Positions 3,883 to 29,236 of a stretch of 31,953 nucleotides of DNA are shown in pieces. The notes beneath the pieces were generated by a model, which saw only the letters and a list, made by a program, of their open reading frames with translations, had not been told where the DNA came from and searched no databases. The first letter of the stretch is position 1; each line of letters begins with the position of its first letter. The translations under genes and the position numbers were made by a program. Source of the stretch: a virus; IMG/VR virus record IMGVR_UViG_3300025128_000192, positions 1 to 31,953 of that record. The stretch is one strand, 5' to 3'.

Positions 3883-3891
3883 GAGAGAGCT

Positions 3892-5103: not shown

Positions 5104-5114
5104 GGAGTTTATAA

Positions 5115-5705
5115 ATGGCAATAGATATGACAGATACTCCTGTATCTTCTACAATAAGACTCAACAGACCAATACCCGGACAGGGGCTTACAAGCGATCC
5201 TGATAATCCTTATCCGTGGGAAAAGCCTCCTGAGTTTACAGACCTAGAACAAGGGATACAATTTATATTCGGACGTTTAATTGATCCTGAGTCTTACATT
5301 TCTATTATGGATGTAATAGATAGTGGCACTCCTTTAATGGATGTTACTCAAGGAATATTATTTAAAGGTTTTACAGAGGGTAAGTGGAATCCAGATTTAA
5401 TGATGCTTCTTGCAGAACCTACTGCTTATATGTTGATGGCTTTAGCTGAAAGAGCCGATATAGATTTTAAAGTTTATAGAGGTGAAGATGAAGATGAAGA
5501 TTCTGAAACTACTCTTTTTAATATAAATTATAGTCAAGAAAAATTAAAAAAATTAAAAGAGTTTGATACTTCTAAAAAACTTCCAAAGGGAATGATACCT
5601 AAAGAGATAGAAGAACAGATTAAAGAACTTCCTGCTTCTAGTTTATTATCTAAACCAGAAGAAGAAGAACCCGCAGACAGCTTACTAGGAAGGACAGGCA
5701 TATGA
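5115..5705 (+). CDS. Conserved-looking phage protein of unknown function, acidic C-terminus
   Basis: The 196-residue soluble protein starts at ATG 5115 after TAAGGAG. The N-terminus is Pro-rich (LNRPIPGQGL, PYPWEKPPEF). The middle looks like a compact helical domain (FIFGRLIDPESYISIMDVID, LLAEPTAYMLMALAERADID). The end is an acidic, disordered tail with two SLL motifs (SSLLSKPEEEE, DSLLGRTGI). I do not recognise a family; the place among virion genes suggests a minor particle or assembly protein. It overlaps the next gene by four bases (ATGA), so the two are probably translationally coupled. Confidence 0.75.
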   Translation: MAIDMTDTPVSSTIRLNRPIPGQGLTSDPDNPYPWEKPPEFTDLEQGIQFIFGRLIDPESYISIMDVIDSGTPLMDVTQGILFKGFTEGKWNPDLMMLLAEPTAYMLMALAERADIDFKVYRGEDEDEDSETTLFNINYSQEKLKKLKEFDTSKKLPKGMIPKEIEEQIKELPASSLLSKPEEEEPADSLLGRTGI

Positions 5706-7741: not shown

Positions 7742-7780
7742 CAACGGAAATCTCTGAGCCTCCAGTTGCAGAGGTTTCCG
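7732..7780 (+). promoter_or_regulatory. Candidate programmed -1 ribosomal frameshift signal
   Basis: Bases 7732-7738 read C CCA AAG in the zero frame, which fits X XXY YYZ. It has the same form as the lambda G/GT slip site G GGA AAG. The zero-frame stop TAA is the next codon (7739-7741). After a 6-base spacer a hairpin begins: arm 7745-7756 (CGGAAATCTCTG), 12-base loop, arm 7769-7780 (CAGAGGTTTCCG), all 12 positions paired with one G-U. The -1 frame is open from 7732 through the lysozyme to 8310. No U-run follows the hairpin, so a terminator is unlikely. Confidence 0.65.
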
Positions 7781-7809
7781 AACAACCATATGTACAACAG
7801 GAAGAAGAT

Positions 7810-8310
7810 ATGACCCCCAGTGGATTGGACATTACTCTAGCAGATGAAGATATATTTCCTAATGATACTCTAGCTAGTACTTTTATAAAAAGTAAAGAGG
7901 GCTTTAGAGAGACTCCTTATTGGGATAATAATCATTGGACATGGGGTTACGGAACAACAGCACCTCATAGCGGAGGACCAGACGAACCTCCTCCATCAGA
8001 TTTAACAATAACTAGAACAGAGGCTCAAGGAGAACTTCTTGCTTATATGCAGAAAGAAGTATTTGATAGACTAAAACCTTTTGATGAGGAACACGGCTAC
8101 AATTTTACAGACTCCGAAATAGCGGCCTTAACTTCTTTTATGTTTAATCTAGGTCCGGGTTCTTTAAATCAAGTCACTGCTAATGGTACACGCTCTAAAG
8201 AAGAAATAGCTAATAAAATGTTAGAGTATATTAATTCAGCAGGTCAGCCATCACAAGGGCTAATAAAACGTAGACAAGAAGAACACAACATATTTGTAGG
8301 AGGGGGATAG
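7810..8310 (+). CDS. GH24 lysozyme (T4-type muramidase), virion domain and/or endolysin
   Basis: The 166-residue form shows the T4-lysozyme active-site pattern: Glu30 (KSKEGFR), Asp39 (YWDNN) and Thr44 (HWTWGYGTT). Spacing is E-x8-D-x4-T; T4 has x5 in the second gap. Downstream, AALTSFMFNLGPGSL matches the conserved second lobe of GH24 enzymes. These hydrolyse the MurNAc-GlcNAc bond of peptidoglycan. ATG 7810 has AGGAAG about seven bases upstream, so free lysozyme can be made. The same frame is also open upstream to 7732 and is reached by a -1 slip from the preceding gene. There is no signal peptide or SAR segment, so a free form would need a holin, such as the one cut by the left edge. The stop lies 3 bases before the next start. 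Confidence 0.9.
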   Translation: MTPSGLDITLADEDIFPNDTLASTFIKSKEGFRETPYWDNNHWTWGYGTTAPHSGGPDEPPPSDLTITRTEAQGELLAYMQKEVFDRLKPFDEEHGYNFTDSEIAALTSFMFNLGPGSLNQVTANGTRSKEEIANKMLEYINSAGQPSQGLIKRRQEEHNIFVGGG

Positions 8311-8313
8311 TAA

Positions 8314-11300
8314 ATGCCTTTGCCAACTAAAAAAACAGTAACTTTTGAAAACGGAGAAACACGTAATGATGTTCCTTTCGGTGTGGATACGTGGGAAGAA
8401 TATCAAAAAAATAAAGAACTAAGAACTCGATTAGGAATGAATGCTCCTCAACCTGTACACGTAAAAGACCCTGAAGAATATGGAGCTTTTGACAGAGATA
8501 TACAAAGAGCTTATCAAGGTTTAGTAGGAAGACCTGCTGCTTATTTAGAATCTATTGTACCGCTAGGTGCTTTTTTTAATATAGGAGAATCTGCTAGAGA
8601 TTTATATGGTGAAGATTTTTACGAATTAAACCTAAGTGATAGGGCGCAGAGAGTACAACAGGCTACAGCAAAGTCTGTGTCTGACTCTGAAACAGGAAAA
8701 TCTTTATTAAATCCAAACCTAGAACAACTTGATCAAGTGTTTGATGAAGATGGGTATGTTACTTCTCCTGAAACTTTAAAAGGAACAGTGTTAGAATTAG
8801 GAACTTATGTAGGTGGAGGAATAGGGATACTAAAAGCTCTGGGTAGATCAGCTACTAAAGCTCCTAAAGCTTTTAGAGAGTTTGCTAAAAATCATAATAT
8901 GACAGCAGCAATGACTGAGGCTGTGGCTAGTGGTGCGGCTATAGATCAGTGGATTAGTAATCCAAACGAAGCTACAGCGGGTACTGCAATATTAGATGCT
9001 CTTGAAATTTCTGATTCTGATTTATTAGGAGTAGGAGAATTTTTAAGAGGAGAAGAAGACGATAGTGCTTTAGAAAAAAGAACTAAAATGTTATTAGGAA
9101 ATCTTCCTTTTGATTTAGCTTTTGGTGTGCTTGCGGGTACGCTTGGAAGTGGTAGCGTTTTATCAGGTAATAAAAAATTACAAGACTTGACTCCCGAAGA
9201 AGTAGGTGAGGCAGCAATGCAAGGGTTGAAAAAAAGTAGAAGGGAAGCAATGCCGCCTACAAAAACAGAACTTACTGTAGACGCTATAGACCCAGATACA
9301 GGAAAAAATGCAGTGTGGAAAGAGGTTGATGACCTTTCTGAAAACAGACAGGTTTTTTCACAAGAAGGTCTTTTTAAAGGACTGTGGCAAAAGTTTACTC
9401 AATCTAGAGGTTATAATGTTTTAGCGGGTCAAGATGCTTTTGAGCAAGCGCAACAGGCAGCACGTAAATTTAGAAATAGAGGAGAGCATTTAGCAGGTAT
9501 GCTTAACACTAGCATTAATAAACTGTTAAAAGGTGGAGTAGATGAAGAAACTTTAGATAATGTTTATCGTGCTTTAACTGAAAGAAAGAAAAAAAGAGTG
9601 AAAGCTTTTAGAGATAAAGAAAGACCTGAGTTAATTGATTTTCTAAAACAAGAGTACAATTTAACTACAGACATAGCTGAAAATGTAATAGACGTTAGAA
9701 AACTAGTAGATGAAATGTCTGTTGCAATTAATGACTTTGCTCCTAATAAAAGAATACAAAGAATAATAAATAAAAATTTAAATAATTATATGCGTAGGTC
9801 TTATGAACTTTTTGAAAATAAAAATTATAAAGCTAGTCAGCCTTCTATGGCTAGAGCACAAACTTATTTTATAAATAAATTTAGAGAAGAAGATTTACTA
9901 GAAGGAAAAACTCTTTTATCAAAAGGTAAAACGCACGTACCAAAGACAGAGGCACAGCTTACAGAAGAGGCTGCAAATGCGGTAGGAGATATTTTAACAG
10001 ATAGGAAAGTGGGCAGAAAAGTTTTTGAAAGAAGACAGAATATGCCAGAAGAAATAAGAGAACTAATGGGGGAGGTAACTAACCCTGTAGATGCCCTGCT
10101 TTTAACTACTTCTAAGATGGCTGATTTTTATGAGAGATCAAGATTTTTAAAAAATATGCAAGACATAGGAACAAAACAAAAATGGCTTTTTACTTCAGAA
10201 CCAGAAGGTTTAGAAGGTCTTGTTAAATTACAGAACACAGGAAGAAAAGAACTCAATGGTATGTACACCACTCCAAAGATGGCTAAAGTAATTAATAATA
10301 AAGAGATAAGTATTTTTGGAGAAGATAAAATTAATAATCCTTTATATAAAAACTTTTTATCTCTAAAAGGTTTTGCAAATAAATCTGCTACTGTGTTTAG
10401 TTGGACTACTATCCTAAGAAATATATTAGGCGGTATTCAGTTTGGAGTTGTTAACGGTTTAAATTCATTTCCTTTGGGGGTGTTATCGGAAAATAGTGCT
10501 AGAACAAATCTGGCTTCTATAAAAAATAACGCTTTGTTAAAGGGAGATAAAGATTTAAATGAATTGTATGAAAGATATGTAGGTTTAGGAGTTATTAATA
10601 CTAATGTAAGAATAGGAGATTTTAGAGCTTTAATAAATGAAGGATTAGAAGCTTCTTCTGTAGATGATATTATGAAAAGGGCTTCTAATAAACTTTCTAG
10701 AGGAGCAGAAAGTTTTTATTTAGGCACAGATGATTTTTTTAAAATGAATGCTTTTTCTTCTGAATTAAATATTTTGAAAAGGGCTAACAAAGGAAACACA
10801 GTACCAGTAGAAGTTTTAGAACAACAAGCTGCCGATATAATAAAGAACACTTTTCCTAATTATGATAGAGTGCCGCCCGGAATTAAAGCACTAAGAAACT
10901 GGCCTTTAGGAACCTTTGTTTCTTTTCCTGCTGAAATAATAAGAACTTCTTACGGTATTACAAAACAAGCAGCAAGCGAATTGTTATCAGGTAATGGAGT
11001 ATTAGCTACAAGGGGTGCTGCTAGGTCAGCAGGTATGTATGCAGGTGTTACAGGATTTCATACTTTAGGTGAAATGCTATCAGATAATATCGGGTGGTCA
11101 GATAAAGAAAAACGAATGGCTGAAGTCCTAGCAGAAACTCCGTGGTCAAAAGATAGTACTAGATTATTTACTAGAGATGAAGAAACTGGAAAAATATATT
11201 CGGCTGATACTAAATTTTTAGATGCTTACAATACTGTTAAAGAACCGTTTACAGCAATTATAAACGAACTAGAAAGGGGAGAATTAGAACAAGCAGATTT

Positions 11301-12078
11301 GTCTGAAAGATATATAGACGCTACAATAAAGGGGCTGCGAACTTTGACTGCTCCGTTTACAACAGAGGCTATTTTTACTAAAGCCATAACAGATGTGTAC
11401 TATGCGGTTAGAGACCCTGAAGGAAAAACTTCAGAAGGAAAATCTTTATATCCTCCTGAAAGTAATATAAGCGAAAGAATAGCTAACTCTTCTTATCATG
11501 TACTTTCTAATCTTATCCCCGGAACAGTAGATAGTATTGATAGATTAATCGGTGCATATGATGATGAAAGAAATCCTTACACTGGTGATGCCCGTTTTGA
11601 TTCAGGTAATGAATGGCTTGCCCTAACTATGGGTGTTCGTTTAACAGAGTTTGATCCTAAACAACAGTTAAATTTTGCTATCAATGATTATAGAAAAGCA
11701 AACAATAATTTAAGAGGTGTTTATGGTAATTATTCTGATAGCATGGGAGATATAGTAGATCAATATAGATCAAGACAAAGAGAAAGATATAAGCTCCAAC
11801 AAGAACTTTATAGAAAAATTCAAGCAACACAGTATTTTGAAAATGAAACAGACATAAATAGTTTACTTATGGAAAGCGGTATTTCTAGAGCAGATTCTTT
11901 TGAATTAAGAAATGGAAGATTTATACCACAAACAATTTCGTTAGATTTTATAGAAGATTTATACGACAAGGTAGGAGATAGTCCTAGAAGTTTTGTAGAA
12001 ATAAGAAGTAAATTATCTGAAGTATATTCATCTATGAACAGGACGTTATTAAACACCCCTGAAGAGGAAGAAGAGTGA
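8314..12078 (+). CDS. Very large internal virion / DNA-ejection-type protein
   Basis: The 1254-residue protein starts at ATG 8314 after a strong GGAGGGGG site. The N-terminal quarter is charged with a Gly-rich hydrophobic patch (TYVGGGIGILKALG). The middle (about 360-620) is helical and very basic. About residues 685-725 are hydrophobic (FSWTTILRNILGGIQFGVVN), and 850-930 hold a distinctive block (NWPLGTFVSFPAEIIRTSYG, SAGMYAGVTGFHTLGEML). The last 100 residues are helical and charged, ending TPEEEEE. This size, layout and place beside the lysozyme resemble the gp16-class proteins that podophages eject with their DNA, though I see no transglycosylase motif here. The peptidoglycan-cutting role may have moved to the neighbouring lysozyme. 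It overlaps the next gene by four bases (GTGA). Confidence 0.75.
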   Translation: MPLPTKKTVTFENGETRNDVPFGVDTWEEYQKNKELRTRLGMNAPQPVHVKDPEEYGAFDRDIQRAYQGLVGRPAAYLESIVPLGAFFNIGESARDLYGEDFYELNLSDRAQRVQQATAKSVSDSETGKSLLNPNLEQLDQVFDEDGYVTSPETLKGTVLELGTYVGGGIGILKALGRSATKAPKAFREFAKNHNMTAAMTEAVASGAAIDQWISNPNEATAGTAILDALEISDSDLLGVGEFLRGEEDDSALEKRTKMLLGNLPFDLAFGVLAGTLGSGSVLSGNKKLQDLTPEEVGEAAMQGLKKSRREAMPPTKTELTVDAIDPDTGKNAVWKEVDDLSENRQVFSQEGLFKGLWQKFTQSRGYNVLAGQDAFEQAQQAARKFRNRGEHLAGMLNTSINKLLKGGVDEETLDNVYRALTERKKKRVKAFRDKERPELIDFLKQEYNLTTDIAENVIDVRKLVDEMSVAINDFAPNKRIQRIINKNLNNYMRRSYELFENKNYKASQPSMARAQTYFINKFREEDLLEGKTLLSKGKTHVPKTEAQLTEEAANAVGDILTDRKVGRKVFERRQNMPEEIRELMGEVTNPVDALLLTTSKMADFYERSRFLKNMQDIGTKQKWLFTSEPEGLEGLVKLQNTGRKELNGMYTTPKMAKVINNKEISIFGEDKINNPLYKNFLSLKGFANKSATVFSWTTILRNILGGIQFGVVNGLNSFPLGVLSENSARTNLASIKNNALLKGDKDLNELYERYVGLGVINTNVRIGDFRALINEGLEASSVDDIMKRASNKLSRGAESFYLGTDDFFKMNAFSSELNILKRANKGNTVPVEVLEQQAADIIKNTFPNYDRVPPGIKALRNWPLGTFVSFPAEIIRTSYGITKQAASELLSGNGVLATRGAARSAGMYAGVTGFHTLGEMLSDNIGWSDKEKRMAEVLAETPWSKDSTRLFTRDEETGKIYSADTKFLDAYNTVKEPFTAIINELERGELEQADLSERYIDATIKGLRTLTAPFTTEAIFTKAITDVYYAVRDPEGKTSEGKSLYPPESNISERIANSSYHVLSNLIPGTVDSIDRLIGAYDDERNPYTGDARFDSGNEWLALTMGVRLTEFDPKQQLNFAINDYRKANNNLRGVYGNYSDSMGDIVDQYRSRQRERYKLQQELYRKIQATQYFENETDINSLLMESGISRADSFELRNGRFIPQTISLDFIEDLYDKVGDSPRSFVEIRSKLSEVYSSMNRTLLNTPEEEEE

Positions 12079-15000
12079 AAAAGTTTTATGAAAAGGGAGG
12101 CTCAGTAATAGTACCACAGGCTCCAGAAGAACCGGATGAGCGCATTGACAAAATGACAGGGCTACCTTACGACTTGCAAGCGGGGGGAGCTTTTATAGAT
12201 GAAGAAGATCGTTTAGGTTTTTCAGCAGCAGGACTAGTTACTTTTATTAAGAGACTAACAAGGGGTGTAGATGAAGTTGTTGCAGACACCAGACCTGTTA
12301 CAAGATTTGAGGCAGATCAAGGAAGTAAAGATACTATTAGAAATTTTAGAGAACAAGAACCACAGTCTTTCATAGACCCCAACTCTTTTTATTATTCTAC
12401 AAGCAAAGTAAAAATAGATAATGAAGGAAAATTTCTTAAACATTTAGATGAAGAAGAAAATTTAGATTTAGGAATGTTTAAAAATGCAGATATTGAAGAA
12501 CAAGATAATATTATAAACAGATTTTATTCGGCCAACCCTAGTAATAAAGCTATGGACATTAAAGTTTATAGAGAACCGGATCAAAGATATTGGAAGGCTA
12601 AACAAGAAACAGAAACTAAATTAAATGCAGAAGTTGAAGATGAGTTTAATAATATACCTGTAGATGATGTTAGTTTAGTTCAGAAATATACTGACGATAT
12701 TCCTAAAGTATCTGACAAACCTGTTGAACCATCTACTTTAACCAAGGAAGAATTTTTAAAAGATTCTGTAGAGAAAAGTCCTCAGTTTAATGGTAGTTTT
12801 TTTTCTGGAATTAGATATGATAATCCTTTGTCTACCCGTATTCCAAGAGAACTTGGTATGCACATTGGTACTAAAGGACAGGCAGAAAATATATTACTAA
12901 GAGGAACACACCCCACTGCTGAGAATATGATAGAACGTATAGCAACACAGTATTACATGGGGCAGGGGATGTCAGAAGCAGCAGCACAAGTAGCCGTTTT
13001 AGAAAAGGGGGTTCCTGATAGTATCTATGATGATCTTATTAAAGAATTAAACTTATCAGTACCAACAGGCGTAGAGCCTTCGTTGCAGAAAGGATTTATA
13101 AACGTAAAGAATCCTTTAATTTTAGATACTGATATGATTAACTGGAATCCTTCTAAGTTTTTAGGAGGCTTTGATCCTAAAGGAAAAATTAAACTAGCTG
13201 AACAAGCTCAGTCTTTTGTGGACGCTTTGAATGCTCAAGTAAAACTACGTCCTGCACAGTTTACTAAGATAGTAGATGATGCTGCTAAACAAATAAATAC
13301 TATTCTTCGTAAGAAAGATAAGAACTCAGGAAAGCTTTTGAACTCTGTTTACGATCACCACATTAATCAACTAACCAAGACAATGCTAGAGGACTTGGGA
13401 TTCGACAGTATTAAGTACAAGAATCTAGGAGAACTTGCAAGGGTTTCAGAGAAGAAGGCAGGAGGCAACTCTTATATATTGTTCAGAGATGATCAGTTTG
13501 TTACTGACTTTGTTGAACAATTAAAAAATCCATATTTTATTAATAGTAAATTTATAAAAGAGTTTGATGGTACAACTGGAAATAAAGACCATTTGACAAG
13601 AAGAGAATTAGGAAGTATTGATCCTAATAAACTAAAAGATTATAGTGGTGTATCAGGAGAAATTCGTGGTCAACATACTACTAGAAGTGATGAAAGCTTT
13701 GAAAAATTAAAAAAGGATATATCTGAAAATGGAATAAAAGAACCTATTTTTATAACAAAAGATTATGGTTCTATGCCTAAAATTTCAGAAGGTAATAACA
13801 GGATAGACGCAGCAATAGCTTTAGGATTAAAAGAAGTTCCTGTAGAAATAAATTATTTTGGTAACTCACAAAAACAAGGTCTTGTTGGACAGTCCACTAA
13901 AACTGACTTTGCTGAACAACCCCCTATTAAACAGGCAGTTGATGACTTACAAACATTTGATGCTGTGATACCGGAAGGTGCTACTACTAAAGTTTTATCT
14001 GGTTCAGGTAAAGAAATTCCGGGTGTTTTTACTAAAGATGTTCCAGTTTTACCAAAGTCAGAAAAGGTAGCTGAAGGTCAACAAGTAGAAACTTTAGCAA
14101 AGCTTTTTCCAGAAAAATTTTCTACAGTGTATAAAGCCGCAAAAGATTTAGAAGATTTTTTAATATCAAGAAAGGGTAAAGGTATTCCAAGAAGATTAGA
14201 ACTATTACCTGAAGAAACTAGAAAAAGATTACAGGAAGTTAATTTTAAAAGGGGCAGAGGAGAAATCAGCCAACTAGATCAATTTAAAATATCTGGTGAA
14301 ATATTACCTGTCAAACCAGTAAAAGTTATGCCTGAAAAAATTTATGATCTTGATGTAGCTAGGTCAATAGATGATAGGAAGTTAGTAGGAACAGGTATTT
14401 TAGATAGAAATGTTTTTATTCAAAATGGGACTAGAACTTCTCAAAGAATAGATATTCCTGTATGGAATTATAAGGGAAAGAAGGCAGTAACCCTCCATGA
14501 TGGTAGGACAAGCGGTGGAAGTCCGATAGCATATGGACGAGGAGGATTACTAGAAGATGTTGAGTTTATAACTTCACCTATAGCAGCTCAAAAAATAGCT
14601 AGGCAAGTAGAGGTTAAAAGTACAATAGCTAGAATAAATGGTAATTGGTTAAATACAAATTATGATGAGCTATATGCTTTTATGAAAGATGTAATAGAGA
14701 ATCCTCTTAAATATCCTAATTGGACACAAGTAAGAATGAATCCTGATATACACTCTTGGTTTATGGATGCTAAAACTGGTCTTCCTCTTATTAGGGCAAG
14801 GCAAGCTGCTCAATCAGGAGACATAGTAATTGCTGAAAATGCAATGACTCCTAATGGAGTTCTAGCTAAAGATATATTAACTACATATGGAAGTGTATTA
14901 GAAGCCGCTGAAGATATTTTTAATTCTAAAGAATTTAAAAAAGCGAGTAAGGAAGGTGGATTTGGTTACATTAACAAAGGAGATGATGTAGTTGGTAAAC

Positions 15001-15119
15001 TTCCTCCAGTATCCACAACCTACAACACTGGAGGCAAGGTACTAGGAAGTCTTGGAAGGGTTAAAAGAAACACAGGCGGTAAAATATTAGGAAGCTTACA
15101 TAGGAGTATGTATAAATGA
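12075..15119 (+). CDS. Large polyvalent virion-type protein with ART-like and ParB-like domains
   Basis: The 1014-residue protein starts at GTG 12075, overlapping the previous stop; there is no nearby in-frame ATG. The N-terminus has FYEKGGSVIVP and PYDLQAGGAFIDEEDRLGF. Residues about 240-480 resemble the ADP-ribosyltransferase domain of phage polyvalent proteins: ELGMHIGTKGQAENIL (His263), FINVKNPLIL, LGFDSIKYKNLGE and SYILFRDDQF. Residues about 510-600 resemble ParB/sulfiredoxin: SFEKLKKDISENGIKEPIFI then ISEGNNRIDAAIALGLKEVP. A third region near 900 (NPDIHSWFMDAKTGLPL) is a motif I associate with phage multi-domain proteins. The tail repeats TGGK(V/I)LGSL twice. Such proteins enter the host with the DNA and can modify host proteins, as T4 Alt does; that function is inferred. 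It overlaps the next gene by ATGA. Confidence 0.7.
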   Translation: MKKFYEKGGSVIVPQAPEEPDERIDKMTGLPYDLQAGGAFIDEEDRLGFSAAGLVTFIKRLTRGVDEVVADTRPVTRFEADQGSKDTIRNFREQEPQSFIDPNSFYYSTSKVKIDNEGKFLKHLDEEENLDLGMFKNADIEEQDNIINRFYSANPSNKAMDIKVYREPDQRYWKAKQETETKLNAEVEDEFNNIPVDDVSLVQKYTDDIPKVSDKPVEPSTLTKEEFLKDSVEKSPQFNGSFFSGIRYDNPLSTRIPRELGMHIGTKGQAENILLRGTHPTAENMIERIATQYYMGQGMSEAAAQVAVLEKGVPDSIYDDLIKELNLSVPTGVEPSLQKGFINVKNPLILDTDMINWNPSKFLGGFDPKGKIKLAEQAQSFVDALNAQVKLRPAQFTKIVDDAAKQINTILRKKDKNSGKLLNSVYDHHINQLTKTMLEDLGFDSIKYKNLGELARVSEKKAGGNSYILFRDDQFVTDFVEQLKNPYFINSKFIKEFDGTTGNKDHLTRRELGSIDPNKLKDYSGVSGEIRGQHTTRSDESFEKLKKDISENGIKEPIFITKDYGSMPKISEGNNRIDAAIALGLKEVPVEINYFGNSQKQGLVGQSTKTDFAEQPPIKQAVDDLQTFDAVIPEGATTKVLSGSGKEIPGVFTKDVPVLPKSEKVAEGQQVETLAKLFPEKFSTVYKAAKDLEDFLISRKGKGIPRRLELLPEETRKRLQEVNFKRGRGEISQLDQFKISGEILPVKPVKVMPEKIYDLDVARSIDDRKLVGTGILDRNVFIQNGTRTSQRIDIPVWNYKGKKAVTLHDGRTSGGSPIAYGRGGLLEDVEFITSPIAAQKIARQVEVKSTIARINGNWLNTNYDELYAFMKDVIENPLKYPNWTQVRMNPDIHSWFMDAKTGLPLIRARQAAQSGDIVIAENAMTPNGVLAKDILTTYGSVLEAAEDIFNSKEFKKASKEGGFGYINKGDDVVGKLPPVSTTYNTGGKVLGSLGRVKRNTGGKILGSLHRSMYK

Positions 15120-16414
15120 AAACATTACTTGGTTTAATAATAGCTACTACACTACTGGTATCAGCCAGTAAACTATATCCAAATGAGCCTACTTATGTAG
15201 ATGATGTAGCTGCCATTATAAACAATAACTGTGTAGTGTGCCATCGTGAAGGTGGTATTGGGCCTATGACGTTTGAATCTTATGAGGAGGTTCGCCCGTG
15301 GAGTCCATTAATTCAAATGAAAGTGGCTAACAGAGAGATGCCGCCCTACGCTTACGATGCGGGAATTGGCATACAAGAATTACATGGTGATTGGAGGCTC
15401 TCTCAGGCCGATGTAGACACGATAGTAGAGTGGGTCAATACGGGATCAGAGTATGGTGATACTGACGTTGTAGTGCAGTCTCCTCGCCTCTCTGACCCTG
15501 ATCAGTGGAACTTCTACGAAACCTTTGGAGAACCTACGTTGGTTATACCGTCTACTCCAATAGATATTCCGGCTACAGGGAACGATCTGTGGCACAAACA
15601 CAACGTAGCCAGTGGACTAACTGAGGACAGGTGCATTAAGGCCATCCAAGTTAAGCCAAGAGGAGAGGCTAAGAGTGTGGTTCACCACGCTAACAGCACT
15701 GTTACCTTAGAAGGCGAGAGGTACGGTATGCTTACTGAATATGCTATGGGTAAGTGGGGAGAAATAGTACCAGAGGGGGTGTGTAGAACCATACCTGCTA
15801 ACGCAGAGATAGCTTGGGACATTCATATGTTCCCCGGAGGTCTTGGAGCTATCGCCCCCGGAACTATTATTAAAGATAATGTAGTAGAGATAGGGCTGTG
15901 GTTGTATTCTCCAGAGGAATCCCAAGAACTTGCTTACGAACAAGACCTGAAGCTATATAGGATTAGTGATCAAGCTGATATTGTTATCCCACCCAATGGT
16001 TATCATATGACACAAGGCTTTCACTCCTTTGATCATCCGGTTCGTATAGACTCATGGCAACCACACGGACATTTAAGAATGAATGCAGCAAGCTTTGAGA
16101 TATTCTACCCTGACACTGGGAGAACAGAGCAGATTAGTCAGGTATCTAACTGGAGTGCAACGTGGCATCACAGTCATTTGTATGACCCAGACTATGCCCC
16201 ACTACTACCAACGGGAGCGGTGTTAGTTTTAAAACAGTGGTATGACAACACAGCAAACAACCCTAACAATCCTGACCCTGATATGTGGGTTGTAGGGGGT
16301 AGTAGGACAGGCGATGAGATGACTCACGCTTGGATAGCAGTAACACATCTTGATGAAGAGAAGTACCAAGAACTTATAACTGAAAGAAACAACAAGAGGT
16401 TGATAGCCCAATGA
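15116..16414 (+). CDS. Exported cytochrome c / copper type II monooxygenase-like protein
   Basis: The 432-residue protein has a signal peptide (MKTLLGLIIATTLLVSA, likely cut before SK), then a small cytochrome c domain. Heme site CVVCH is at 39-43 and probable axial Met75 is in REMPPY. From about 150 the sequence matches bacterial relatives of peptidylglycine and dopamine monooxygenases. It has the His pair 190-191 (VVHHAN), His237 (DIHMF), His317/His319 (PHGHLR), WYDNTANNPNNP, and Met402 (GDEMTHAW). These positions fit both copper centres of the family. The protein would act in the periplasm, need host heme-attachment machinery and oxidise an unknown substrate. The start overlaps the preceding stop by ATGA, so it is wired into the late operon. 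Local G+C is higher than in the gene before it (31 of 60 bases at 15241-15300 against 16 of 60 at 14881-14940). Family call is firm; substrate and role are unknown. Confidence 0.85.
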   Translation: MKTLLGLIIATTLLVSASKLYPNEPTYVDDVAAIINNNCVVCHREGGIGPMTFESYEEVRPWSPLIQMKVANREMPPYAYDAGIGIQELHGDWRLSQADVDTIVEWVNTGSEYGDTDVVVQSPRLSDPDQWNFYETFGEPTLVIPSTPIDIPATGNDLWHKHNVASGLTEDRCIKAIQVKPRGEAKSVVHHANSTVTLEGERYGMLTEYAMGKWGEIVPEGVCRTIPANAEIAWDIHMFPGGLGAIAPGTIIKDNVVEIGLWLYSPEESQELAYEQDLKLYRISDQADIVIPPNGYHMTQGFHSFDHPVRIDSWQPHGHLRMNAASFEIFYPDTGRTEQISQVSNWSATWHHSHLYDPDYAPLLPTGAVLVLKQWYDNTANNPNNPDPDMWVVGGSRTGDEMTHAWIAVTHLDEEKYQELITERNNKRLIAQ

Positions 16415-16596
16415 AATATTTAATACTTACGGCTTTACTACTGACAGGCTGTAGTAACTTCGGAGCGCCTAGTGGAATGTCCTTACACTTACAAGAGTAC
16501 CCTCAATTTAACTGGATTGATCAAGATATTTTTATGTTGAATGTAAGAACTTGTAGGAGTCTAGACCACTGCGCTGCTGAACAACTATTTAATTAA
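16411..16596 (+). CDS. Small lipoprotein
   Basis: The 61-residue product begins MKYLILTALLLTGCSN, a textbook lipoprotein signal with lipobox LLTGC and lipidated Cys14. The mature part is about 48 residues with two more Cys (RTCRSLDHCAA), which could form a disulfide in the periplasm. It overlaps the cytochrome/copper gene by ATGA, so the two are translationally linked and both go to the envelope. It could be an outer-membrane spanin of the Rz1 type, a superinfection-exclusion lipoprotein, or a partner of the redox enzyme. No inner-membrane spanin gene is visible beside it, which weakens the first option. Function unknown. Confidence 0.7.
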   Translation: MKYLILTALLLTGCSNFGAPSGMSLHLQEYPQFNWIDQDIFMLNVRTCRSLDHCAAEQLFN

Positions 16597-17023: not shown

Positions 17024-17992
17024 CTACACACTTATAAAATTTATATTTTCTACATTCCCTTTAAGCCCCGCCTTCATATAAGTAGTTGCCCTGCCTTCAA
17101 AAAAGTTCTGATGTTCTACTCCTAGCACATCATCTAACCATAGTAAAGGATTGTCACTGACTTTATAATTAGGTTTTAATCCAAGTTGAAGAAGTCTTCT
17201 GTCTGCTATGTATCTAATGTACTCCTTCATTTCATCTTTAGTAAGCCCCTGAATATCACCCAGTTCAAATACTAAATCTAAAAACTTGTCTTCTAGCTTA
17301 ACCATTTCCCTGCATACCTGATAGATTTCCTTTTTAAAATCGTCTGTCCATATGTCTACGTTCTCCTTTATAAACTCTTTGAATAAAGTTGTCATGGCCT
17401 CAACGTGTAGAGACTCATCACGTATACTGTAAGTAACAATCTGTCCCATCCCCTTCATCTTTCCAAATCTAGGAAAGTTTAAAAGGATTACAAAGCTACT
17501 GAATAATTGTAGCCCCTCCGTAAAAGCAGAATAGACTGCTAAGTTTTTAGCTATAGACTCCTTGTTGTTTAGTTTTAAAGGAGAGCTACTTATGTACTCA
17601 TGTTTGTCTGCCATTGCTTCATACTCAGCGAATGCTCTGTACTCTTTCTCAGGCATCCCCACTGTATCCAACAATAAACTATAGGCGTGTTGGTGTATTG
17701 ATTCCATGTTAGCAAAGGATGACATCATCATTCTTGCTTCTGGTTTCTTGAACACACGCATATACTTATCTATATAACCAGACGCAACGTCTACATCTGA
17801 CTGTGTAAACAATCTAAATATCTGGCTCAACAAATTCTTTTCAGACTCATCCATGTCCTGCCAATCTTTAACATCATTGTGTAGGGGTACATCTTCGGGC
17901 AACCATATCATTTGATTCTGTTGTACATAGTAATCAAACATCCACGGATGATCAAAAGGTTTATAGTAGTCCCTTGTCCCTAGTAAACTCAT
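17024..17992 (-). CDS. nrdB: Ribonucleotide reductase class I, beta (radical) subunit
   Basis: The 322-residue protein carries the whole class I di-iron set with the E. coli spacing: Asp66, Glu97 and His100 (MESIHQHAY), Glu159 (AFTEGLQLF), Glu193 and His196 (RDESLHVEA). The radical-forming tyrosine is present as Tyr104. The subunit makes the tyrosyl radical that starts reduction of ribonucleotides to deoxyribonucleotides in NrdA. The C-terminal tail ends NINFISV, which would dock onto the alpha subunit. Start ATG 17992 has AAGGAGAG upstream and overlaps the preceding stop (TAATG). It is separated from nrdA by three small genes but is in the same operon. It supplies dNTPs for phage replication. 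Confidence 0.95.
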   Translation of the reverse strand: MSLLGTRDYYKPFDHPWMFDYYVQQNQMIWLPEDVPLHNDVKDWQDMDESEKNLLSQIFRLFTQSDVDVASGYIDKYMRVFKKPEARMMMSSFANMESIHQHAYSLLLDTVGMPEKEYRAFAEYEAMADKHEYISSSPLKLNNKESIAKNLAVYSAFTEGLQLFSSFVILLNFPRFGKMKGMGQIVTYSIRDESLHVEAMTTLFKEFIKENVDIWTDDFKKEIYQVCREMVKLEDKFLDLVFELGDIQGLTKDEMKEYIRYIADRRLLQLGLKPNYKVSDNPLLWLDDVLGVEHQNFFEGRATTYMKAGLKGNVENINFISV

Positions 17993-18279
17993 TAACTCTC
18001 CTTCATTAAATTAGATATAGATTGAAAATCTTTTTTTGATTTGGTTAGTTTGTTGTGTAAGTACATAGCAGACCAACATCCTAAGACTGCTCCGGTTGCA
18101 AGCTTCCAAACTAATTCTAAGCTTGCTCCCATTTGTACGATGTTAATAATAATATAGACTTCTGTAAAAGCCATAGCAATGCTGAACACAGGCACAAATA
18201 AATAGTTGTTAAATGCAACATTACGTTGTTGAAAAGCTTTGACAAATACAGAAATGTAACTAGCTAATATCAAGTTCAT
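17992..18279 (-). CDS. Small membrane protein with about three transmembrane segments
   Basis: The 95-residue product has hydrophobic stretches at about 2-14 (LILASYISVFVKAF), 26-48 (YLFVPVFSIAMAFTEVYIII) and 56-76 (LVWKLATGAVLGCWSAMYLH), and a basic, soluble tail (KLTKSKKDF). The motif KAFQQRNVAFNNYLFVP resembles a phage membrane-protein family that I recall but cannot name. It lies in the nrd block and ends at the nrdB start (TAATG). Possible roles include an early inner-membrane modifier or a second holin; nothing in the sequence decides this. Confidence 0.7.
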   Translation of the reverse strand: MNLILASYISVFVKAFQQRNVAFNNYLFVPVFSIAMAFTEVYIIINIVQMGASLELVWKLATGAVLGCWSAMYLHNKLTKSKKDFQSISNLMKES

Positions 18280-18388
18280 TGGCTTCTTCTCTGGTTTCTA
18301 GTGAGTCTTTTATTTCACGGACAATCTCTAGAAGTTCTGCCCCCTCCTCCTCATCACCATGTATTTCAACTGTTACTTTGAACTTCAA
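18260..18388 (-). CDS. Small acidic protein with TTG start
   Basis: A 42-residue frame fills the gap between two neighbours. It begins with TTG at 18388 preceded by AGGAG at good spacing, and there is no in-frame ATG. The product (MKFKVTVEIHGDEEEGAELL...) has a beta strand, then an acidic helix. It overlaps the upstream gene by 23 bases and the downstream gene by 20. Without it 86 bases would be noncoding in a very compact operon. Support is the ribosome site, the gap filling and the protein-like composition. Confidence 0.5.
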   Translation of the reverse strand: MKFKVTVEIHGDEEEGAELLEIVREIKDSLETREEANELDIS

Positions 18389-18686
18389 ACTCTGCTCCTA
18401 TCTCTGCTATAATTTCCCAGTATCTTGTAACCATTCCTTTTGGAATTACCATCACAGCATTAACATACTCTTCATCCTTTTTGCTGTGATAGCGATCAGT
18501 ACATAATATAATTTCATTGTCGTTATCCGCTACTAGATAACCTACGCTTGACCTAAGCACAGGCTTTAGTTTTCTAGCGTCAGCGATGAGATGATCCTCA
18601 GTATCTATCCAAGCATCTTCCCACTCAACCTGCATGATACAACCTAATAGTGCATCATGGTGCGGATTATTTGGTTTATCCTTCAC
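18366..18686 (-). CDS. Hypothetical phage protein downstream of nrdA
   Basis: The 106-residue product starts at GTG 18686, overlapping the nrdA stop by 11 bases. The next in-frame ATG would remove 17 residues. The N-terminus HHDALLGCIMQVEWEDAWID is followed by a probable small beta domain (VGYLVADNDNEIILCTDRYH, AVMVIPKGMVTRYWEI). This 'VGYLVADND..VILC.....VIPKG' layout recurs in phage proteins of unknown function near nucleotide-metabolism genes, as far as I recall. No catalytic motif is seen. Confidence 0.65.
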   Translation of the reverse strand: MKDKPNNPHHDALLGCIMQVEWEDAWIDTEDHLIADARKLKPVLRSSVGYLVADNDNEIILCTDRYHSKKDEEYVNAVMVIPKGMVTRYWEIIAEIGAEFEVQSNS

Positions 18687-20508
18687 AACTTATACACCCC
18701 TCTTCATCTAGTTTTATTCTAGGTATTTTTATATTTACATTCTCTGTTCCTCTGGCAGAGTCAGATCGTAAATAGTACATAGACTTTAGTTTATTAGCAC
18801 CTGCCCAGTGTACGTCATTAACGTACTGCAAGAACTCATCGTGAGTTTCTTGTGTTGCATTGTGGTGTGGTGGTTTAAAGAATAGGTTTACACTCTGTCC
18901 TTGACAAACATATTTTTGTCTCATGCAAGCGTGTTCTATAATCCATATTTGATTTAATTCAGGAGCAGTTTTAAATACCTCTTTCATCTCATCAGTTAAA
19001 ATGTCTAGGTGCTGAACAGACCCTTCATGTGCTGCAATATCTTTCCAAATTTCATTGCGCTTTTTGTTGTTGGGTACAAGCTCAAACAACAAATCATCTA
19101 AGTATTTATTCTTAACTTTAAAGCTACCCGTTAAGGTCTTGTGTGTGTACACGTTAGCTCTGTTAGGCTCTATAGATGGGCTAGTGCCGTCACATATTAT
19201 AGAGCTAGAAGCGTTAGGGGCTACCGCCAGTAAATGTGCGTTGCGCTTGCCGCTCCCTTTCATGTCAGGACACTCACCCCTTTCCTCTGCTAGTTGTCTT
19301 GTTGCAGCAGAAGCCCTGTCCTTTATAAAAGAAAAGGCTTTGTTATTAAAAGAAGATGCCCACATACTTTCAAAAGGCGTGTTGTTCTTTTGTAAATAGG
19401 TATGGAATCCCATAGCTCCTAGACCTATAGACCTCTCACGCATAGCAGAGTAAGCTGCTTTAGCGTAGCCTCCTTGTTCTTTGACCGCATCAATAAAGTT
19501 TTGTAACACGTTATCGAGCATAGTAATAAGGTCAGAAATAAAGCTATCTTCTTTTGACCACTCATCAAAGTACTCAAGATTAACACTAGACAAACAACAG
19601 ACTGCCGTCCTTTCTTCATTGGTTGGTAACATAATCTCAGAACAAAGGTTGCTCTGTTTAATCTCTAGACCTAGTTTCTTTTGTTCTTCTGGTAAAGCAT
19701 CGTTGCATATATCTAGATTAACAATGTACGGTTCTCCTGTTTCCATTCTTGTCTGAATCATTTGGAACCACAGGTCACGCGCTGAAACTGTCTTAACTGC
19801 CGTGTTAGTTTTTGGGTCTATCAGTCTCCACTCTTTGTCAGTCTTCACACAATCTAAGAACTCATTGGATATGCTCACAGCATTGTGAAGATTCAAACAC
19901 TTTCTATTTAAATCTCCTCCTGTAGTCTTACGCATATTAATAAACTCTTCAATCTCTGGATGAGATATGTCCATGTATGCTGCGTAACTCCCTCTTCTTG
20001 TAACGCCTTGATTAAAGGCAAGCATCTGACTATCAACTACGTGCATGAATGGGATAGAACCAGTAGACTTAGAACCGTTAGCAGTGTCCACACCATTGCT
20101 CCGAACATTACTCCAACATCCACCGATGCCTCCACCTCCACTAGCGAGCCATATATTCTCATCATAGTGAGCAGATAAACCATTGCGGGAATCAGGAACA
20201 AAATTAAGAAAACAACTGATAGGTAAGCCACGGCTAGTTCCCCCGTTGCTAAGGACAGGAGTGCTAAACATGAACCAGAAACTACTAGCATACGTGTAGA
20301 GTCGCTGTGCAAGATCATAATCAGTGTGTCCGTTATAAGTAGCACCAAATATACTGGCGCGAGCAAAAGCTTCTTGAGCATGAGTTTCATTCTCCCAAAG
20401 ATACCTGTCCTTTAATGTAGAGAGAGCAAAAGAATCTAGACGTTCTTCTGCATCATAATTTATTTTGATTCCTAAGTAATCTTGCTTGCCTATTTTGCTC
20501 TGTGTCAT
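18676..20508 (-). CDS. nrdA: Ribonucleotide reductase class I, alpha (catalytic) subunit, lacking ATP-cone
   Basis: The 610-residue protein has the class I catalytic residues: Cys99 (PISC), Asn287-Cys289-Glu291 (SNLCSE) and Cys304 (AVCCLSS). It also has the radical-transfer tyrosine pair (MYYLRSDSARG) and a C-terminal redox pair in GCISCEG. It reduces ribonucleoside diphosphates using the NrdB radical. Only 98 residues precede the first catalytic Cys, compared with 224 in E. coli NrdA. There is no room for the N-terminal ATP-cone that lets dATP shut the enzyme down. This is common in phage enzymes and implies activity despite high dATP. The C-terminal CxxC would be re-reduced by host thioredoxin or glutaredoxin, since none is encoded here. 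Start is ATG 20508. Confidence 0.95.
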   Translation of the reverse strand: MTQSKIGKQDYLGIKINYDAEERLDSFALSTLKDRYLWENETHAQEAFARASIFGATYNGHTDYDLAQRLYTYASSFWFMFSTPVLSNGGTSRGLPISCFLNFVPDSRNGLSAHYDENIWLASGGGGIGGCWSNVRSNGVDTANGSKSTGSIPFMHVVDSQMLAFNQGVTRRGSYAAYMDISHPEIEEFINMRKTTGGDLNRKCLNLHNAVSISNEFLDCVKTDKEWRLIDPKTNTAVKTVSARDLWFQMIQTRMETGEPYIVNLDICNDALPEEQKKLGLEIKQSNLCSEIMLPTNEERTAVCCLSSVNLEYFDEWSKEDSFISDLITMLDNVLQNFIDAVKEQGGYAKAAYSAMRERSIGLGAMGFHTYLQKNNTPFESMWASSFNNKAFSFIKDRASAATRQLAEERGECPDMKGSGKRNAHLLAVAPNASSSIICDGTSPSIEPNRANVYTHKTLTGSFKVKNKYLDDLLFELVPNNKKRNEIWKDIAAHEGSVQHLDILTDEMKEVFKTAPELNQIWIIEHACMRQKYVCQGQSVNLFFKPPHHNATQETHDEFLQYVNDVHWAGANKLKSMYYLRSDSARGTENVNIKIPRIKLDEEGCISCEG

Positions 20509-20614
20509 GGGTTATTTTTTTAGTCCTTTTATGGTTGTGTGTTCTATGCTTCTTGTCTACAGCTTCTTTCTTTTTATTGTACTTAGCTGTTCGTTCAGCT
20601 TTGCGATCCCACAT
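20453..20614 (-). CDS. Short basic protein overlapping nrdA start
   Basis: A 53-residue frame begins with ATG 20614 (MWDRKAERTAKYNKKK...), with AAGGA about nine bases upstream. It is rich in Lys, Arg and His (VDKKHRTHNHKRTKK) and has no hydrophobic core, so it may bind nucleic acid. It overlaps the upstream gene by 20 bases and the first 56 bases of nrdA in another frame. It covers the 86 bases otherwise empty between these genes. A long overlap with nrdA makes the C-terminal part doubtful. Confidence 0.45.
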   Translation of the reverse strand: MWDRKAERTAKYNKKKEAVDKKHRTHNHKRTKKITHDTEQNRQARLLRNQNKL

Positions 20615-20816
20615 TTGTAATGTCCTTATATATTTCTTGACGTATTCTTTTCTTAACCTCTGTGTCTGCTTCAGATATAACTTTAATATCTGTTGGTTTT
20701 AATTTATAAGTTTCCCAGTAAACAGCTTCAGGTGGATTTGTTTTTAATTCGTACTGCCAAACATCCCCATCTATATCTCTAAAAAACATCTCGCCTTTAG
20801 TGTTTGCAAGCATCAT
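20595..20816 (-). CDS. Small hypothetical protein
   Basis: The 73-residue product starts MLANTKGEMFF after one further Met. ATG 20816 overlaps the DUF3310 stop (ATGA) and has AGAGG seven bases upstream; an ATG at 20822 is also in frame. The sequence suggests a small beta domain (MFFRDIDGDVWQYELK) then a charged helix (EADTEVKKRIRQEIYKDI). No family recognised. Confidence 0.6.
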   Translation of the reverse strand: MMLANTKGEMFFRDIDGDVWQYELKTNPPEAVYWETYKLKPTDIKVISEADTEVKKRIRQEIYKDITNVGSQS

Positions 20817-21157
20817 TTGCATACCTCTGCTGTAAGTTTATCTAGATACCATCTGGCTTTACGCAAATCTTTTACATTGTCCTTGTATCTAAACCGCCAT
20901 ATATACTTTATAACATTTCCTCTGAGATACCCTTCAAACTCTTCTTTGGTAGAGGCCGCTTCAATAGCCTCAATACATTCTATGTCACCATTATTATAAT
21001 GTGATGGATGATCTATATCATCTTTCTCAATAGGCACAACTGTTTTTCTTTTGACTGTTCTTGCTTCACCAATAACCTCATCTGAATAGTAGTTGCCTTC
21101 CCTTAATTTTTTATTGACTTCGTTCCATTCATCAGGCGTTGCGTCATCAATACTCAT
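20813..21157 (-). CDS. DUF3310 family protein
   Basis: The 114-residue product has the DUF3310 signature: DHPSHYNNGDIECIEAIEAA, then YLRGNVIKYIWRFRYKD and DLRKARWYLDKL. The family is common in tailed phages and often annotated as a nucleotide kinase, but no P-loop is present here, so I do not accept a kinase activity from the sequence. The N-terminal 45 residues are charged and variable. The start overlaps the endonuclease I stop (TAATG). Its place in the replication and nucleotide block supports a role in DNA metabolism. Confidence 0.85.
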   Translation of the reverse strand: MSIDDATPDEWNEVNKKLREGNYYSDEVIGEARTVKRKTVVPIEKDDIDHPSHYNNGDIECIEAIEAASTKEEFEGYLRGNVIKYIWRFRYKDNVKDLRKARWYLDKLTAEVCK

Positions 21158-21600
21158 TAATCATCTCTCCATTTTTTAGGTAGTGTATCTTCATCGTACC
21201 ACTTAAAGTTGTTAGCCTCTGCCCATTCTGCATGGCTACGTTTTGTCCCGTCCTTACGCTTCTTTGCTTGGGGCATAGCGGCATAAGGAGCAGAAAATAA
21301 AAACACAAGCTCAACATTTTTAGGTAGTGCTTTCCTAACCCATGTGTACTTGTTGTATTCCTGATAGTCCCAGAACCTTCCTTTAGCTTCTAACAAAATT
21401 GTTTTATTTCCAATAACCTTTATAAAGTCTGGATGATATTTATGTTCTACTGTATAGTCAACCGTGTCGCTATGGTGTTGCCAGTTTTTAAGAACTCCTT
21501 GATGTAAAGTATGCTCCCACTTAGAATCATATGTTGCAGGAACATCCTTTTCTTTGGGCCTAGCTACCCTTTGTTTCCTGTATCCTTTTCTTATCTTCAC
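21157..21600 (-). CDS. T7-type endonuclease I (Holliday-junction resolvase)
   Basis: The 147-residue protein matches T7 gp3. The catalytic set is Glu29 (DSKWE), Asp58 (YHPDF), Glu71 and Lys73 (LLEAKG), as in T7 Glu20, Asp55, Glu65 and Lys67. It cleaves branched DNA, resolving recombination intermediates and helping to break down host DNA before packaging. The N-terminus is basic (RKGYRKQRVARPKEK). Start is GTG 21600, overlapping the upstream stop (GTGA). It sits in the classic T7 neighbourhood of polymerase and exonuclease. Confidence 0.92.
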   Translation of the reverse strand: MKIRKGYRKQRVARPKEKDVPATYDSKWEHTLHQGVLKNWQHHSDTVDYTVEHKYHPDFIKVIGNKTILLEAKGRFWDYQEYNKYTWVRKALPKNVELVFLFSAPYAAMPQAKKRKDGTKRSHAEWAEANNFKWYDEDTLPKKWRDD

Positions 21601-21872
21601 TTGTTCATTTCCTTACAGTCCTGTACTGTTATTAAAGATAAGTCTTTAGTGTAGCATAACTTTTTCAATCGTTTAACAAACCACTTATAAGTAAACGAAC
21701 TCAAGTGGAAAGTACCATCGTTGTAATATAAATGAGTTTGTTTAGGTGTAAAGTCTAAGACGTTGTTTACATTATACACCTTTCCAGACTCCTTGTCAAC
21801 AAGAGATTGCATCCACTCTACTAAAAGCTCCTTAGCTCTGCGCCTAATCAACTTCATTTTCTTGGAGTTCAT
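21597..21872 (-). CDS. Small basic hypothetical protein in the recombination block
   Basis: The 91-residue product starts MNSKKMKLIRRRAKELLVEW and is basic throughout. A central aromatic part (QTHLYYNDGTFHLSSFTYKW) leads to a basic C-terminus (FVKRLKKLCYTKDL). It overlaps the exonuclease by ATGA and endonuclease I by GTGA. Its charge and position suggest a DNA-associated accessory protein, but no motif proves it. Confidence 0.7.
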   Translation of the reverse strand: MNSKKMKLIRRRAKELLVEWMQSLVDKESGKVYNVNNVLDFTPKQTHLYYNDGTFHLSSFTYKWFVKRLKKLCYTKDLSLITVQDCKEMNK

Positions 21873-22744
21873 ACTAAAACTTCCTCCACTCTAGGCTCAG
21901 ATAATACTTTAGTGAAGTGAGCTAACCCTTTGTTATATCTAAATGTTCTCAAGCCCTGCCCATCATTAGCATCTTTAAAACATTCATGTTTGTGTGGGCA
22001 ATAAGAACAATTCTTATGTATCTTCTTGTTGCCTTTCTTTCCTTCAGAGACAGGCTCATAGCATAACTTTGAAGGGGGCTTGGATTTGTTTAGCGCCTTG
22101 ACTGCGTGGCTTATCCTGTCTCTAATCACAGGCTTGTCTAGTTCCTCTGGCGCATAGAAACAAAGCTCTCCACTTTCTTTATTGATAACTAGAAAGCCTC
22201 CCTTCTCTGTCCCTTCGGCCTCTTCGTAGCCTGTTAGCTGTGGTATGTAACCAAAGGGATCATCATCGCCCAGTGAACCACCGCTGAATTTTCTAAACGC
22301 ATACCCCGAAGCAGTCTTTATATCTACTACCTCATCATCTATCTTACAATCCATGTGACCAGAGACACCATCTACCATAACTTCTTTTTGCTCAGAGCCT
22401 ACATCGTGATCCGTAAGTCTAGCAAGCATGAGGACTACCTCTTCAAGTAGGTGTCCATAAAGAAACTTAATGAATGTCTGAGGTGAGTGTCCTTCTTGTT
22501 TTACTTCCCCATGTTTATCAAACCAAAGTCTCCTGACAGGCTTGCCTATGTTAGACATCCTCAATGTAAAAGAAGAATCTCTTTTAGGTGGTCTAGCCCA
22601 TGACTCAAGAGCAGACTTCATTCTCTCGCCAAAGTTTTCTATATCCTCATCTGATATATCAAGGTGCTTGCCTTTGGTAAGGGGGGCTAACGCCTCATAA
22701 ATATCTTTAGCTATATCAGAAGTTAAATTTCTGTTGTTTGACAT
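21869..22744 (-). CDS. Cas4/RecB-like PD-(D/E)XK exonuclease
   Basis: The 291-residue protein shows the RecB-family nuclease motifs in order: GHLLEE (97-102), GHMD with Asp132, VVDIKTAS with Asp141 and Lys143, and the QxxxY motif PQLTGY (Gln169, Tyr173). Near the C-terminus Cys228, Cys246, Cys249 and Cys255 (NCSYCPHKHEC) resemble a Cas4/AddB iron-sulfur site. The N-terminal Cys of true Cas4 is replaced in SNIGKPVRRLWF. In this phage order it most likely replaces T7 gp6 as the 5' exonuclease for recombination, primer removal and host DNA degradation. There are no cas genes nearby. Start ATG 22744 has AGGAAG upstream. Confidence 0.88.
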   Translation of the reverse strand: MSNNRNLTSDIAKDIYEALAPLTKGKHLDISDEDIENFGERMKSALESWARPPKRDSSFTLRMSNIGKPVRRLWFDKHGEVKQEGHSPQTFIKFLYGHLLEEVVLMLARLTDHDVGSEQKEVMVDGVSGHMDCKIDDEVVDIKTASGYAFRKFSGGSLGDDDPFGYIPQLTGYEEAEGTEKGGFLVINKESGELCFYAPEELDKPVIRDRISHAVKALNKSKPPSKLCYEPVSEGKKGNKKIHKNCSYCPHKHECFKDANDGQGLRTFRYNKGLAHFTKVLSEPRVEEVLV

Positions 22745-23135
22745 ACGGTTCTTCCTGTATAATTTTCTTGCCCTTACGGACGTTAGGCATATAATGTAAT
22801 TCTTCCCATGTTCTTATGCTGTGACAGTTAGCGCACCTAACCTCACACTTTTTTACTTCATTAAATAATTCTTTTATGTATTCCCTATTCTTTTTTTTGT
22901 CGGTTAGGTTTATTCTTTTTACCATCCTAGACATTTTCCCACCACCTCCCGATGCGGCAGCGTCTAGTATAAGGTGTTTGTTTTCTCTGACAATGTGATC
23001 AAAGTGTAAAGCTTTAGGATGTTTCTTATAGCCACAATCTTTACAACCCCTTTCCATTTTAATTTGATTTAACTTATGATACCTTCTGTCACGGACGTAC
23101 TTAATGTAATCTGGTGTACTACAGTTAATGCGTTT
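22716..23135 (-). CDS. Free-standing HNH endonuclease
   Basis: GTG 23135 is preferred because GGAGG lies eight bases upstream; an in-frame ATG at 23168 has no ribosome site. The 139-residue product has a zinc knuckle CKDCGYKKHPKALHFDHI (CxxC plus the Asp-His of the HNH core), then CEVRCANCHSI with the second Cys pair and final His. These enzymes nick or cut DNA at specific sites; free-standing phage copies often act as homing endonucleases against relatives. It is wedged between polymerase and exonuclease and overlaps both ends (11 and 29 bases). It may have arrived by homing, though the overlaps show it is well settled. Confidence 0.85.
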   Translation of the reverse strand, partial: KRINCSTPDYIKYVRDRRYHKLNQIKMERGCKDCGYKKHPKALHFDHIVRENKHLILDAAASGGGGKMSRMVKRINLTDKKKNREYIKELFNEVKKCEVRCANCHSIRTWEELHYMPNVRKGKKIIQEEPYVKQQKFNF

Positions 23136-26530: not shown

Positions 26531-26532
26531 AC

Positions 26533-27293: not shown

Positions 27294-27336
27294 ACTATAT
27301 CTCCTCTGTTTAGTTTATATGTGTATGGTAACACAG

Positions 27337-28941: not shown

Positions 28942-28967
28942 TCTTTATCTCCAAGTTATAATTTATT

Positions 28968-29129: not shown

Positions 29130-29154
29130 TTTATTTCCCCTAATTAAAATTAAA

Positions 29155-29229: not shown

Positions 29230-29236
29230 ATAAATG

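Follow-up and report, generated by a model that had tools for sequence, protein, structure and literature searches.

The window, which is the whole stretch of DNA that was analysed, is a linear IMG/VR record of 31,953 bases and carries on its plus strand, at 15116-16414, a gene for an exported cytochrome c/two-copper monooxygenase that we refer to as type A. Our own translation of 15116-16411 yields a protein of 432 residues whose N terminus, MKTLLGLIIATTLLVSASK, reads by eye as a Sec-type signal sequence of approximately residues 1-22 (15116-15181), and homologue hydrophobicity points the same way, with a hydrophobic N-terminal stretch in 308 of the 308 phage homologues tested. This is followed by a CVVCH heme c attachment site (residues 39-43; 15230-15244), identified by motif and alignment, and by the invariant Met75 of an MPP motif (15338-15340), the presumed distal heme ligand. 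Further along the protein lie the presumed ligands of two copper sites, given here with their counterparts in peptidylglycine α-hydroxylating monooxygenase (PHM; PMC6123673): for CuH, His190-His191 (15683-15688; H107/H108) and His237 (15824-15826; H172), and for CuM, His317-Gly-His319 (16064-16072; H242/H244) and Met402 (16319-16321; M314), all of them invariant, the His317-Gly-His319 motif in phage copies. On both sides the gene is joined to its neighbours by ATGA: its start codon overlaps the stop of an upstream late gene encoding 1014 residues (12075-15119, plus strand) at 15116-15119, and its own stop is overlapped by the ATG, at 16411, of a gene encoding a 61-residue lipoprotein (16411-16596, plus strand). 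An earlier note on this DNA had claimed the signal peptide, each of these ligands and the coupling to both neighbours, and all are where it had placed them. The 1014-residue protein itself contains a weak endolysin-like segment (224-476) and a weak ParB-nuclease-like segment (537-596), and its homologues at other loci align only in part.

The genome around this gene is that of a phage. On the minus strand, the early genes of the window code for a primase/helicase of the T7 type, a family-A DNA polymerase, both the large and small subunits of ribonucleotide reductase (RNR), a Cas4-type exonuclease and an endonuclease, while the plus strand carries the late genes, for a lysozyme and for large proteins of virion type; the oxygenase and lipoprotein genes come close to the 3' end of this late operon, shortly before the point where it meets the convergent nrdB. 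The nearest relatives of the DNA polymerase and of NrdB are those of the Pelagibacter phages HTVC103P and HTVC115P, the second of which has the same convergent early-late layout and, in the equivalent slot beside nrdB, no oxygenase gene. The early strand also carries a holin-like gene (17992-18279, minus strand; phrog_7045, E 1e-8) between the genes for the small and large RNR subunits, and a tRNA-Cys (GCA) gene (29237-29310, minus strand). A scan for promoters and terminators around the oxygenase gene gave nothing convincing.

The GC3 of the oxygenase gene, at 0.40 versus 0.17-0.22 in the surrounding late genes, could be taken to mean that host DNA or an assembly chimera has been mistaken for a phage gene, a possibility to which we assign a negligible probability. 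Both ATGA junctions recur at 100% identity in a contig from another assembly (L002) and at 96% in three more (L003-L005), in over 25 further contigs the oxygenase gene is likewise flanked by the late operon and nrdB, and approximately 30 contigs are syntenic for RNR, DNA polymerase and late genes around it. Since the junctions are repeated in independent contigs, they are not an assembly join, and the earlier note was right to treat the gene as integrated in a phage. In addition, the phage proteins form a single clade, and a terminase and/or Gp23 capsid gene is present on 12 of the 20 oxygenase-carrying records tested. Together, the repeated junctions, the phage clade and the hallmark genes rule out chimera and host contamination. 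GC3 also differs by strand within the window, from 0.17-0.22 in the late plus-strand genes (190-16414) to 0.33-0.42 in the early minus-strand genes (17024-31926), and the value for the oxygenase gene resembles that of the early set.

The kinship with PHM and dopamine β-hydroxylase (DBH) that the earlier note had proposed is now backed by a predicted fold. An AlphaFold model of the type-A protein, built from 73 homologues (pLDDT 83, pTM 0.81), has human DBH (4zel, E 1.5e-10) and rat PHM (3mll, E 2e-10) as its top Foldseek matches. In VIA-align comparisons, it aligns with DBH over 265 residues (Z 18.4) and with PHM over about 245 (Z approximately 17-18), while the next unrelated fold reaches only Z 8.4. 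The aligned ranges (approximately 137-416 in the model and 55-328 in PHM) take in all the copper ligands of both proteins, which follow the same order, HH-H-HxH-M, with the HH pair adjacent and the HxH motif equally spaced. We can thus predict with confidence that the C-terminal, two-lobed β-domain of the model adopts the PHM/DBH fold. The structure prediction suggested by the earlier note supports this kinship; in the profile searches that it also suggested, Cu2_monoox_C is not among the matches listed, and cytochrome c profiles stay below their cut-offs. Among the matches listed for the type-A protein, neither of the Cu2 monooxygenase families (PF03712 and PF01082) appears, the curated cut-off not being reached; PF03712 matches weakly in 4 of the 73 relatives and exceeds its cut-off somewhere in four of the five cellular genomes that hold the family. 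Searches of PDB sequences did not reach PHM either, whether with two profiles (A1 and A3) or with single sequences, and the A3 profile mainly found the redoxin domain. Because a sequence-profile bridge failed, fold comparison was used, and homology to PHM rests on predicted fold and ligand order. Matches of the A1 profile to SMC3 were taken as chance.

A PHM-like fold with its copper ligands might suggest a true peptidylglycine-type enzyme (EC 1.14.17.3), amidating or trimming host or phage peptides in the periplasm. We consider this very unlikely. The residues that anchor the substrate carboxylate in PHM, which we take to be R240, N316 and Y318, next to the CuM ligands, differ in both phage types. 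At the equivalent positions, as judged by distance from the ligands, all phage type-A proteins have Q315, H404 and W406, and the phage proteins of a second type, type B, have L, F and A; it is only in the cellular type-B group that Arg and Tyr mostly occupy these positions. With Gln and Trp (type A) or Leu and Ala (type B) in place of the Arg and Tyr of PHM, peptide amidation is unlikely, and no PAL lyase was identified in the window.

The N-terminal part of the protein is supported as a cytochrome c domain by its motif together with weak fold and profile matches. At the level of motif it has what a c-type cytochrome should have, since CxxCH and Met-Pro-Pro are invariant. The Pfam cytochrome c profile scores 20.2 bits against a cut-off of 27. 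On their own, the first 110 residues or so are predicted to form a small helical domain, for which the ten best Foldseek matches are all cytochromes c, none of them significant, and the best VIA match, a weak one, is PccH (Z 7.2).

The metal ligands have been kept with great consistency. All ten are invariant in an alignment of 73 sequences reaching down to 25-28% identity, and they are intact in 100 of 100 phage type-A, 54 of 54 phage type-B and 68 of 68 cellular type-A proteins, counted as unique sequences complete at both ends, even though types A and B are only about 26% identical. The type-A gene is under strong purifying selection in phages, with a pairwise dN/dS of 0.03-0.10 (about 0.05 overall) among phage genes, the wider pairs being near synonymous saturation. 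This matters for the possibility that the enzyme is a redox sink, which mainly eliminates O2, peroxide or copper, or draws off electrons, thereby protecting the infected cell or tuning respiration, with hydroxylation as an incidental activity. A heme and two coppers presumably present in one periplasmic protein would suit such a role, and cellular relatives carry a fused redoxin domain of the AhpC/TSA type. However, the phage copies are without the redoxin domain, and in 18 of the 26 cellular type-B relatives with sequence across this part of the protein, the CuM histidines are gone (replaced by Arg/Lys and Asn/Ser), whereas both copper sites are intact in every complete phage copy. Site loss is therefore possible in the family and does not occur in phages, which argues for selection on the monooxygenase site and leaves a redox sink a rather poor candidate.

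Type A is part of a cassette with the lipoprotein and/or the type-B paralogue. The lipoprotein of the window has an LTG-C lipobox, with the cysteine at position 14, and a conserved tail, N-x-R-x-C-R-x4-C-x-A-E-x-L-F. In 100 distinct phage type-A loci with enough flanking sequence, in which the lipoprotein was sought with a local HMM, the slot directly downstream of type A, which usually overlaps it by 4 or 28 bases, is occupied by type B in 52 and by the lipoprotein in 37, two of which have both, and by neither in 13; type B is thus alone in the slot in 50 loci (three with a lipoprotein further behind) and the lipoprotein in 35. Type B takes the place of the lipoprotein, for example, in L039 (5609-6847), L045 (11244-12485), L062 (11250-12476) and approximately 50 other loci. 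In several loci, type B and the lipoprotein start with a near-identical signal sequence (MKxLILLVSS), which suggests modular exchange between the two at the signal peptide. The lipoprotein turned up in none of the 46 cellular loci and none of the 9 cellular genomes searched, which suggests that phages added it. A conserved neighbour gene encodes a 157-residue protein with one transmembrane segment, no Pfam match and no sign of a redox role.

The lipoprotein also underlies the main rival to a metabolic function, namely that oxygenase and lipoprotein together modify the envelope, oxidising a lipid, glycan or receptor of the cell's own so as to exclude other phages or aid lysis. Conservation of the lipoprotein across phage groups and its absence from the cells searched would fit this role, as would a weak match to the Cor exclusion family, confined to the signal peptide, and the position of the gene in the late region, which in many relatives follows immediately on an M15 peptidase endolysin gene. 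However, in the L064 phage the cassette is inserted between the clamp-loader and DNA-polymerase genes, away from lysis genes, the lipoprotein is missing directly downstream in about half of the loci, and the tandem arrays of cellular relatives near alcohol dehydrogenases point to small-molecule metabolism. On balance, we regard a role in the envelope or in exclusion as unlikely, if less so than a redox sink.

The gene is also spread across several unrelated groups of ocean phages. Type A was found in at least 257 IMG/VR contigs and type B in 118, and the carriers are unrelated: the window lineage; the L023 lineage, whose late region differs; a T4-like group that has Gp23 together with a DNA polymerase of the T4 type (L064); and Gp23-bearing large contigs, 230-340 kb in length (L059 and L062), the latter with a tail sheath gene as well. 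In contrast, there is no homologue in 50,697 records of isolate phages. What the earlier note called a most unusual auxiliary gene is thus rare among isolated phages only, and widespread in viral contigs. The plasmids searched have no type-A homologue, and among the matches listed for BFVD viral models there is no PHM-like relative, only generic β-proteins. No earlier report of a viral PHM/DBH-type copper monooxygenase was found among the open-access journal papers searched. The gene, then, is genuine, carried by phages and conserved, and it seems not to have been reported before. Two other phage groups have a radical-SAM gene and a nitroreductase gene close downstream of the oxygenase (12509-13822 in L064 and 11410-12033 in L072).

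Where the gene came from can be read, with some caution, from its phylogeny, which the earlier note had suggested as a way to find the donor. In a maximum-likelihood tree, which was built quickly and has long branches separating the types, every phage type-A protein falls into a single clade (SH-aLRT 99) nested within homologues from Pseudohongiella-type and other marine Pseudomonadales. A single clade suggests one capture with later spread from phage to phage, and type A was apparently captured once from a marine gammaproteobacterium among these Pseudohongiella-type Pseudomonadales, although the donor may belong to an unsampled group. Most of the cellular homologues that we found belong to Pseudomonadales, whereas the replication genes of the window resemble those of Pelagibacter phages. 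Among 195 genomes drawn from the order of G001, 15 have any homologue at E 1e-20, and four genomes only have members at 65% identity or more. Three contigs assigned to cells are probably phage contigs binned into metagenome-assembled genomes: L090 and L118, two short GTDB contigs that fall inside phage clades of the oxygenase tree, and L082 (PBPT01000016.1, 335 kb, "Neomarinimicrobiota"), which has the cassette lipoprotein and groups with viral contigs.

In cells, the relatives stand in tandem, with two to five copies per array, and their neighbours include a PQQ alcohol dehydrogenase, a GMC oxidoreductase and a redoxin-cytochrome-PHM fusion. Several such fusions (L086 4965-6731 and L104 11541-13235, both on the minus strand, L119 and L103) have lost the CuM histidines (PHMH to ARMN or ARMS), keep the other ligands and adjoin intact arrays; they are possibly electron-transfer or regulatory partners. 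HTCC2089/Pseudohongiellaceae have been reported to carry other monooxygenases together with alcohol dehydrogenases, suggesting degradation of aliphatic compounds (PMC8371827); the text of that report makes no mention of these copper enzymes, and the word "copper" is absent from it.

Taken as a whole, the evidence makes it probable that the gene encodes an exported periplasmic C-H monooxygenase that is self-reducing, with the fused cytochrome c replacing ascorbate as electron donor, and that it serves the phage as an auxiliary metabolic gene (AMG). The heme and copper content, the substrate and the benefit to the phage are what we infer in this reading. As suggested by signal sequence and motif, the protein would be secreted to the periplasm, where the cytochrome c maturation machinery of the host would attach one heme to CVVCH. 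The PHM/DBH domain would bind copper at CuH through H190, H191 and H237 and at CuM through H317, H319 and M402. Electrons could then pass from periplasmic carriers of the host to the fused cytochrome c and on to the copper sites, in place of the ascorbate that serves animal PHM (PMC6123673) and DBH, and CuM would activate O2 and hydroxylate a C-H bond of a small substrate. The likely fate of the product would be conversion from alcohol to aldehyde and entry into host metabolism, a fate made likely by the position of the cellular relatives beside PQQ- and GMC-type alcohol dehydrogenases or oxidases; beside the oxygenase in the window, no dehydrogenase gene was found. Once captured, the gene may have passed between unrelated phages in a small cassette, together with type B and/or the lipoprotein, and been kept as an AMG, positioned in the window lineage where the late operon ends. 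What we find corresponds to what defines an AMG: a host-derived metabolic gene in a phage genome, kept under selection. A wider proposition, for which the chances seem to us somewhat short of even, is that this is a mobile cassette across unrelated phages, made of one or two self-reducing heme-copper monooxygenases and a phage-specific lipoprotein, which installs a new periplasmic oxidation pathway, and that its oxygenase is both the first viral PHM/DBH-type enzyme and the first cytochrome-driven one to be described.

These findings suggest that these viruses change the oxygen chemistry of the outer compartment of their hosts. Described phage auxiliary genes act mostly inside the cell, in photosynthesis and in nucleotide, carbon, sulfur and nitrogen metabolism. 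If our reading is correct, this repertoire would be extended to oxidation chemistry in the periplasm by a conserved, exported oxygenase that viral contigs carry in their hundreds, and it would be a natural PHM/DBH enzyme with a fused cytochrome c in place of ascorbate. The work also draws attention to a family of oxygenases in marine Pseudomonadales that is still uncharacterised and whose substrate should be within reach of study.

Comparison with known systems highlights both similarities and differences. Like known phage AMGs, type A is a host-derived redox enzyme in a phage genome and under purifying selection; the difference is that no PHM/DBH-type copper monooxygenase was found among these, in the phage records, listed BFVD matches and literature searched. 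With PHM and DBH (PF01082/PF03712), it shares the predicted fold (Z 17-18) and the order of copper ligands, but at approximately 13% identity, below the Pfam cut-off and without the presumed carboxylate anchors; moreover, it is bacterial or phage-borne, exported, and extended by an N-terminal c-type cytochrome domain. The redoxin (AhpC/TSA)-cytochrome c-PHM fusions of the same bacteria, which are the nearest family to phage type B, have the cytochrome c and PHM-like core in common with the phage proteins but differ by their extra N-terminal redoxin domain, and many are without the CuM histidines, which complete phage copies never are. Closest are the uncharacterised cytochrome c/PHM proteins of Pseudomonadales (Pseudohongiella and relatives), with the same architecture, all ligands and 63-74% identity; while these form tandem arrays, the phage proteins are a clade of their own, encoded singly or as A-B pairs and accompanied by a lipoprotein found in phages only.
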